Both the position numbers and the translations under genes were made by a program. A stretch of DNA of 44,032 nt from an uncultured Pseudomonadota bacterium (GTDB lineage Bacteria > Pseudomonadota > Zetaproteobacteria > Mariprofundales > Mariprofundaceae). The DNA lies in the NCBI GenBank assembly GCA_913055645.1, contig CAJXLC010000015.1:1-44032 (forward strand), in the 5' to 3' direction. Positions 42,231 to 44,032 of this stretch are shown here, piece by piece; position 1 is the first letter of the stretch, and every line of letters starts with the position of its first letter. The notes beneath the pieces were generated by a model. The model saw nothing but the letters and a program-made list of their open reading frames with translations, did not search any database and was not told where the DNA came from.

Positions 42231-42449
42231 ATGATGAATACTTTTCGCGCACGTAAAATCGCAGAAGCTTTTTCACCGATTAACTCGTTTGGTGTTCAAA
42301 CAAGCAATGACGGCATGTTGGTAAATTATTTAAATAACCATGCTTATTTTGCAACAGAAGATAAATTTTGGGCATTTGTGTTTAAACTTGCTCAAGTGAA
42401 TCACGAAGAAGGACAAGTCGCTGAAATCGAAGCTGAACTTATCGCCTGA
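42231..42449 (+). CDS. Small protein of unknown function (72 residues)
   Basis: A very strong Shine-Dalgarno sequence, TAGGAGGTG, sits five to seven bases before ATG 42231 (ATG 42234 is also possible), which is the main reason to call it. The product begins MMNTFRARKIAEAFSPINSF, has a central NDGMLVNYLNNHAYFATEDKF segment (two parts) and an acidic end (EEGQVAEIEAELIA). It has no signal peptide or membrane helix. I do not recognise the family. Its last 120 bp are antisense to the end of the response-regulator frame. Confidence 0.65.
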   Translation: MMNTFRARKIAEAFSPINSFGVQTSNDGMLVNYLNNHAYFATEDKFWAFVFKLAQVNHEEGQVAEIEAELIA

Positions 42450-42953
42450 CTTAAATTTTGTTTGAACAGAAGTTTTTTGCTTCCTATGATGACTGCTTAG
42501 ATCCCTGATTTGAGAGCTTAATAACTCCACATTAACAGGCTTGGATAGTATTGTTATATTATGTTGGGCTACTTGATTTGCATCTATGTCATCAGGGGCG
42601 GCGGTTAAAATCATTGAAGGAATATTTTGTCCATATTCTAAAGCTTTTTGGATAAGCTGAAGGCCGCTCATGTTTGGCATTTTATAATCTGTAATAATAA
42701 TATCGATATTTTCGCCATGCTGCTTTAGATAACTTGCGGCACCGAGAGGGCAATCAAAAGCAAGTGGTTGGTGCCCGATGTCTTCTAGAATAGCAGAATG
42801 AATCTGCAAGAGCATTTTATTATCGTCTACGATAACAATGCGTAAAGAGTCTGGTTCAGACTGAATGTCAGTATTCATAGTGTTTTTCGTTTTTTTCTTT
42901 AGAAAATCGATAAACCTATAAAATGCATCAAGCCATTTTGGTGTTTTACTCAT
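42330..42953 (-). CDS. Single-domain response regulator with atypical C-terminal tail
   Basis: A 207-residue protein with a receiver domain (about 36-152): VDDN at the acidic pocket (residues 42-45), phosphorylatable Asp89 in IIITDYKMPNMSG, the conserved Thr of LTAAP and Lys138 in LSKPVN. There is no recognisable output domain. The last 47 or so residues, from about 160, are Phe/Lys/Cys-rich and are encoded opposite the 42231 gene, so the tail may come from loss of an earlier stop codon. AGGATAG precedes ATG 42953. A partner kinase is not adjacent; the hybrid kinase at 30840-33527 is one candidate. Confidence 0.82.
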   Translation of the reverse strand: MSKTPKWLDAFYRFIDFLKKKTKNTMNTDIQSEPDSLRIVIVDDNKMLLQIHSAILEDIGHQPLAFDCPLGAASYLKQHGENIDIIITDYKMPNMSGLQLIQKALEYGQNIPSMILTAAPDDIDANQVAQHNITILSKPVNVELLSSQIRDLSSHHRKQKTSVQTKFKSGDKFSFDFSDLSFFVIHLSKFKHKCPKFIFCCKISMVI

Positions 42954-42982
42954 GGTTTCTATCCTACCCCCATGCAGGAATG

Positions 42983-42994
42983 ATACCTAGTTAT
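42983..42994. repeat. Left copy of 12-bp inverted repeat flanking lipase gene
   Basis: ATACCTAGTTAT is the exact reverse complement of ATAACTAGGTAT at 43992-44003. Just inside it the sequence continues to GTAGCC, which resembles the complement of GGCT at the outer part of the right copy, so the similarity extends slightly beyond 12 bp with gaps. Confidence 0.5.
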
Positions 42995-43007
42995 TGTAGC
43001 CTATTAT

Positions 43008-43025
43008 ATCGCATAAATATGCGAT
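43008..43025. promoter_or_regulatory. Palindromic operator candidate
   Basis: ATCGCATA-AA-TATGCGAT is a perfect 8-bp inverted repeat with a 2-bp spacer in the divergent gap between the response-regulator gene and the lipase gene. It is flanked by a 9-bp direct repeat TTGTAGCCT (42994-43002 and 43045-43053). The symmetry suits binding of a dimeric repressor or activator; no regulator is identified. Confidence 0.45.
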
Positions 43026-43159
43026 GCGAGCAGTAACGATGATGTTGTAGCCTTTAACGTTTTAATGGGTAGAAGGGGTTCAAAGATTTCAAAGCATCAT
43101 CATAAAAGGTTTTGTTATCAAACCGCAATTGAAATATATTTCAGATAGTGAGGTGTGAT

Positions 43160-43948
43160 ATGTCCAAAGTGGAAGATGCCAGCTTAGATATTGAGAAACA
43201 GGGACGAACATTTGATGGCTTAAGCAACCCTAGAAAATACAAATCATCACTCGACCATTTGAGCAAACAAGCCTTTGAACAAGCTTGGCAAGATAAGCAG
43301 GCATGGGTATTGGCAAACTTTTCACATATTGCATATTATGATGCAGCGCATGTGCAAAACAGCTTAAAAGATTTTGGGTTTCAAGTGACATGTTATGATG
43401 ATGGGCATGGTCGCCAAGGTTTTTTAGCCGTGGATGCAGATAAAGCGATTTTAGCTATTCGAGGTACAGAATCATCAGATATTCGTGATATCATTGATGA
43501 TTTAAGGGTTTGTCCTATTTCTTATCAAGGTGCTAAAGTGCATCGTGGTTTTTTGGATGCGGCGCAGTCATTGATGCAAACGCAAGGTGATACGGAAAGT
43601 CTTGAGGTATCATTAAACAAGTTGAATCATCATGCGCTGTATGCAACAGGGCATAGTTTGGGTGCGGCGATGGCAGTGATTGTTGGGATGTCTTGTGCGT
43701 TTGAGAAAATAGTAACTTTTGGCGAGCCTAGAGTGGGTGCAGGCATTATATTGCAAGGGGACGATGGGTTAAGTCATACCCGTTTTGTGAATGGTAAAGA
43801 TATTGTCACCGCGATTATTCCTGAAATGCCTATTTACAGGCATCACGGTGTTGAGCAAAAGCTTTTTGAGCATGAGGAAAGTGAGTTTTTTGTGGGAAGT
43901 ATATTGGATCATTCAATCATCAACTATGTGGAAAGGCTCAAAGAATAG
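43160..43948 (+). CDS. Class 3 lipase family alpha/beta hydrolase
   Basis: A 262-residue protein with the nucleophile elbow GHSLGAAMA, the acid candidate in VNGKDIVTAIIP and a histidine candidate in ILDHSIINYV, in the order Ser-Asp-His of lipase class 3 (PF01764-type). LAIRGTESSDIRDIIDDL before it is the typical oxyanion-region phrase, and KVHRGFLDAAQ is also characteristic. There is no signal peptide, so it is predicted to be intracellular. The frame opens with GTG 43148, but ATG 43160 after GAGG is preferred. The gene is bracketed by a 12-bp inverted repeat. The substrate is unknown. Confidence 0.88.
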   Translation: MSKVEDASLDIEKQGRTFDGLSNPRKYKSSLDHLSKQAFEQAWQDKQAWVLANFSHIAYYDAAHVQNSLKDFGFQVTCYDDGHGRQGFLAVDADKAILAIRGTESSDIRDIIDDLRVCPISYQGAKVHRGFLDAAQSLMQTQGDTESLEVSLNKLNHHALYATGHSLGAAMAVIVGMSCAFEKIVTFGEPRVGAGIILQGDDGLSHTRFVNGKDIVTAIIPEMPIYRHHGVEQKLFEHEESEFFVGSILDHSIINYVERLKE

Positions 43949-43979
43949 GCTGAAACACACTGGAAATGAATAAGATTTG

Positions 43980-44032
43980 GGGCTGTCCCAGATAACTAGG
44001 TATTATTTTTTGTAACCCATTGTTTTAACATA
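43980..44032. mobile_element. Possible transposon or repeat end at right window edge
   Basis: Sequence beginning GGGGCTGTCCCAGATAACTA (43979-43998) has the look of an insertion-sequence terminus, GG-rich followed by a conserved AT-rich block. It contains ATAACTAGGTAT (43992-44003), which is inverted relative to 42983-42994. No transposase is visible before the window ends, so this is only a suggestion. Confidence 0.35.

Follow-up and report, generated by a model that had tools for sequence, protein, structure and literature searches.

The end of a probable IS1595-family insertion sequence beside a lipase gene in a Mariprofundaceae genome, and a 12-bp inverted repeat that does not delimit an element

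The window analysed here, 44,032 nucleotides long, is an entire contig (C15) in the genome assembly of an uncultured bacterium of the Mariprofundaceae (1.88 Mb in 56 contigs). Near its right end lies a gene for a class 3 lipase of 262 amino acids, encoded on the plus strand (43160-43948, with the ATG at 43160 and the stop codon ending at 43948), whose product matches the Pfam family Lipase_3 at 55.1 bits (cut-off 22). Its left neighbour is a response-regulator gene on the minus strand (42330-42953), and the upstream region of that gene contains the 12-mer ATACCTAGTTAT at 42983-42994 and the palindrome TCGCATAAATATGCGA at 43009-43024. The exact reverse complement of the 12-mer is found on the other side of the lipase gene, at 43992-44003. 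An earlier note on this DNA had described a perfect inverted pair about 1 kb apart that encloses the lipase gene and the palindrome, and this description is accurate: both copies are present, and both features are located between them. The note went on to propose that the pair bounds a small non-autonomous cargo element, or else represents two remnants of one repeat family. A scan of positions 42850-44032 for promoters and terminators stayed near the level of shuffled sequence (5 against a mean of 3.7, and 1 against 0.9, respectively).

Among 2000 dinucleotide shuffles of the 1.1-kb segment, 4.55% contain one or more exact 12-bp inverted pairs. In the window as a whole there are ten exact 12-bp inverted pairs spaced 50-1100 bp apart, compared to a shuffle mean of 3.8 (sd 1.9); none of 200 whole-window shuffles reached ten. 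The window thus exceeds its own shuffles in the number of these pairs, and the pair flanking the lipase, being one of ten, does not stand out. Genome-wide, the 12-mer has 7 matches with at most one mismatch, below the 17 of a reversed control pattern, and a stray copy is therefore unsurprising. Exact copies of ATACCTAGTTAT number five: the left copy at 42983-42994 and four right ends of the insertion sequence (IS) described below.

The right copy of the 12-mer overlaps a longer sequence, GGGGCTGTCCCAGATAACTA (43979-43998), which the earlier note had rightly likened to a transposon terminus. With at most three mismatches allowed, this 20-bp terminus has ten matches in the genome and a reversed control pattern has zero, which puts it far beyond chance. 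The ten termini are four left ends, four right ends and two that bound a single deletion derivative on contig C4. Left and right ends have in common a 22-bp terminal inverted repeat (TIR), GGGGCTGTCCCAGATAACTAGG, located in the window at 43979-44000. Inward of these 22 bp the termini split into two sequence classes: left ends (C8, C30, C36, C46 and one side of the C4 derivative) continue as AAAAGTTATCGTGAGGGACAATATGAGA, the start of the transposase gene, and right ends (C10, C19, C52 and C15, the window itself) continue as TATTATTTTTTGTAACCC, of which the other C4 side has a diverged form. C30 and the left-end side of C4 have one terminus mismatch each. All eight ends outside C4 are no more than 154 bp away from the end of a contig, which is what one expects of an element that short-read assembly cannot cross. 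The right end in the window occupies 43979-44032 on the minus strand; it starts at 43979, is oriented away from the lipase, and is truncated at 44032 by the end of the contig. The right 12-mer is made up of inner TIR sequence together with the terminal bases of the transposase gene. This gene's final 11 codons and stop (MLKQWVTKNNT-stop) are encoded at 43996-44031 on the minus strand, and the stop codon falls within the 12-mer. Among the 11 genomes of the genus, the terminus is present in three, including this one (at most two mismatches).

The C4 derivative (73309-73662) is 354 bp long. Presumably it is of the same kind as the MITE-like deletion derivatives of insertion sequences, which it resembles in that it retains both termini and its interior matches pieces of both ends of the transposase gene; it differs in that a single copy was seen, and its target duplication is alike in 7 of 8 bases.

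The IS is flanked in the window by the 8-bp sequence TAAGATTT (43971-43978), the partner of which follows the left end on contig C8. Three such target site duplications are exact, 8 bp long and A/T-rich: AAATCTTA for C15/C8, ATAATCAA for C10/C46, and AAATATTT for C52/C36. When four random 8-mers from the window were compared with four others, three or more exact matches were obtained in none of 200,000 draws, and likewise in none when only A/T-rich 8-mers were drawn. The left end on C30 and the right end on C19 have no partner. The match between C15 and C8 indicates that the window contig should be joined to C8.

The uninterrupted site is observed in a contig (L044) of a Mariprofundaceae metagenome-assembled genome, which encodes a lipase 92% identical to that in the window; judged by coordinates, L044 and contig C201 of genome G007 are apparently one contig. 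Window positions 43105 to 43975 align with L044, which then continues with sequence corresponding to C8 from base 58 onward; no IS separates the two. The window side and the C8 side align directly on L044, where the sequence passes from the lipase to the next gene without the IS, and the joined C15/C8 flanks align with it with few differences. This next gene, which on C8 has matches to an S1 domain and to a ComEA-type helix-hairpin-helix (the matches listed all score under the whole-protein cut-offs), is the one we take to be tex-like. A stretch of approximately 210 bp (C8 142-353) containing a dispersed hairpin repeat is absent from L044, so that the IS is not the only difference between the two sites.

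What family does this IS belong to? A 717-bp relative in genome G017 carries the same TIR, with 1 and 2 mismatches, and is flanked on either side by TATTTTAA. The reading frame of this copy is broken, and its longest open part, which was the part analysed, matches the IS1595 transposase model NF033547 at 161.4 bits (cut-off 75) and PF12762 at 113.4 bits (cut-off 27). A partial transposase in genome G005 scores 38.4 bits with the Pfam model (cut-off 27) and 69 bits with the NCBIfam model (cut-off 75); related transposases occur in 13 of the 61 genomes sampled from the family, our genome being among the 48 without one. The earlier note had suggested looking for a matching transposase in the genome itself, and a search with NF033547 found none, as the interior of the IS is unassembled. 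Another right end in the genome, on C10, encodes a 44-aa C-terminal tail, which is 73% identical to the tail of the G017 copy; its match to NF033547 is weak (15.1 bits, E 0.016, cut-off 75), and a search of Pfam with the tail found nothing. Since the interior is unassembled and the tail match is weak, family membership rests on the ends, the target duplications, the tail and the relatives. On these sequence grounds the right-hand element is probably an IS1595-family, IS1016-like insertion sequence. Of the features of the IS1016 subgroup it has the TIR beginning with GGGGCTGT, here 22 bp at left and right ends, and the A/T-rich 8-bp duplications, in three exact pairs; its length is predicted at about 0.7 kb from the G017 relative, its own interior being unassembled.

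A known IS1016-type member of the IS1595 family, ISApl4, is 712 bp long, has the terminus GGGGCTGTACTAGA, makes A/T-rich 8-bp duplications and contains a motif with FIKECEFRFN, according to the account available in PMC12561309. Compared with that account, the present element is alike in its predicted length of approximately 0.7 kb (the G017 relative measuring 717 bp), in the beginning of its TIR, in its A/T-rich 8-bp duplications, in the C-terminal FLKECEWRFN, and in that its ends map to multiple contigs of draft genomes. It is unlike ISApl4, as described in the same source, in having a 22-bp TIR of its own sequence instead of one of 14 bp, and it differs in its host, which probably belongs to the Mariprofundaceae.

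The history of the locus that we propose, and in which we have high confidence, is as follows. A copy of the IS1595-family (IS1016-like) element, with a predicted length of about 0.7 kb, would have transposed between the lipase gene and the tex-like, S1-domain gene, duplicating the 8 bp TAAGATTT. The assembly was then presumably unable to pass a multi-copy element, which would be why only its first 54 bp are included in the contig. The right 12-mer is inner IS terminus where this overlaps the transposase gene's end, and the left one would be unrelated sequence from the region upstream of the response-regulator gene, matching it by chance. C15 and C8 would be connected through one full copy of the IS, and its unassembled interior is probably the transposase gene.

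No transposon terminus surrounds the left 12-mer. A genome search with positions 42951-43040 found no further copy of the 12-mer region, and the four weak matches that were obtained overlap the palindrome. A comparison of the left region was allowed by one congener only, G001, whose genome is 68% complete. In G001 an intergenic stretch with 123 of 165 alignment columns identical holds the 12-mer as ATACCTAGCTAT (11 of 12 bases) and the palindrome with one change, and runs on into a tex-like gene. In this 68% complete genome there is no match to the lipase, and no match to the IS terminus at two mismatches or fewer; the left 12-mer is thus independent of both. Beside it in G001 (L054 1464-1562) there is only a remnant of the response-regulator start, a 32-aa frame with 48% matching over its first 29 residues, and a longer response-regulator frame is absent, so that the neighbourhood of this intergenic sequence varies on both sides between species.

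One could suppose that the left 12-mer is a decayed right-end remnant of the same IS family and that the lipase came to lie between two IS copies. All 12 bases match the IS right end, including transposase-gene bases beyond the TIR. However, the 12-mer is perfect while its flanks are identical to the IS at only 9 of 28 and 2 of 13 positions, approximately the chance level, and its position is kept in G001, where the terminus search was negative. We rejected the left 12-mer as a decayed IS end, consider this history very improbable, and do not retain the notion that the two 12-mers are remnants of one repeat family. It is most likely that the left 12-mer is a chance match unrelated to the IS; it may also be a conserved regulatory piece, and it is not an IS end either way.

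Alternatively, the 12-mers could delimit the lipase segment as a small non-autonomous element that is mobilised in trans. For this one could cite the perfect inverted pair, the patchy distribution of the lipase and three congeners in which the intergenic sequence of the site is joined to tex without it. The idea is hardly credible, as the right 12-mer sits inside an outward-facing IS end with a duplication and partner end of its own, the left 12-mer lacks a terminus and is retained with one change in G001, where the lipase has no match, and in L044 the lipase is followed by neither the IS nor the right 12-mer. A cargo element would require two facing termini and a duplication; here the right terminus faces away and the left one is absent. 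The IS extends rightward from its terminus, outside the lipase segment, and the idea of the lipase as cargo was rejected, the terminus facing away and the lipase being present without the IS in L044. On this reading no mobile element carries the lipase. The inverted pair is real, but it does not delimit an element, and most likely it combines one IS end and one chance match.

The distribution of the lipase is nevertheless uneven. It is matched at E 1e-10 or better in 2 of the 11 genomes of the genus (G000 and G007), several of the eleven being incomplete, and in G001, G003 and G004 the intergenic sequence of the site runs into the tex-like gene without a lipase. The leader of the lipase gene (43105-43144) is present in G003 and G004 (L058 and L059) before the tex-like gene, with no lipase between them. 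Judged from these alignments, the leader without a lipase suggests that the lipase was gained or lost at that point. Nothing was found that ties its patchiness to the 12-mers.

The palindrome is not specific to the lipase, since G001 keeps it with one change and has no lipase match. With at most one mismatch, TMGCATAAATATGCKA (43009-43024) recurs at 7 places in the genome and in 8 of the 11 genomes of the genus; for the reversed control, the 11 genomes together give 2 matches. Four of the sites in this genome were viewed, those in the window, C7, C11 and C18. In the window the palindrome is upstream of the response-regulator gene; on C7 it presumably precedes another response-regulator gene and on C18 a sigma-factor-like gene, and on C11 it lies beside a gene that we take to be hybrid-kinase-like. 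It is possible that this predicted site is the operator of a shared regulon.

The repeat that distinguishes C8 from L044 is a hairpin element, about 122 bp long and dispersed through the genome (GTAACTATTCAG...CTGAACAGTTAC), found at C8 (L029) 138-260 and at further places (L060-L087), and absent at the corresponding site in L044. It is MITE-like. A 231-bp query containing it matched 47 stretches of the genome, part of them belonging to a second, neighbouring repeat, and by our own count the 31 aligned rows represent 27 distinct copies, four of which were aligned once in each orientation. For the C8 copy the folding energy is -40.7 kcal/mol (z -5.9). By eye, the IS flanks on C36 and C52 look like two halves of one such element; its start does not occur in the window at three mismatches or fewer. 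The Rfam search covered L001 and L029 (C8) and reported one family; at the gathering score nothing matched over the hairpin in L029. The reported family is an SAH riboswitch (RF01057, 47.1 bits) at C8 4986-5064, and the gene just upstream of it is, we assume, S-adenosylmethionine-synthetase-like.

The case is mainly a warning that a repeat pair found close to the end of a contig may combine a real IS end and a chance match. The prediction that follows from the present case is that contigs C15 and C8 join. It is conceivable, though we think it doubtful, that the lipase is a recent gain of this lineage before the tex-like gene, that the nearby IS copy and hairpin repeats point to a rearrangement-prone site, and that the IS is an undescribed IS1016-like element of the Mariprofundaceae. 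For this lineage, a multi-copy IS1016-like element is now documented.
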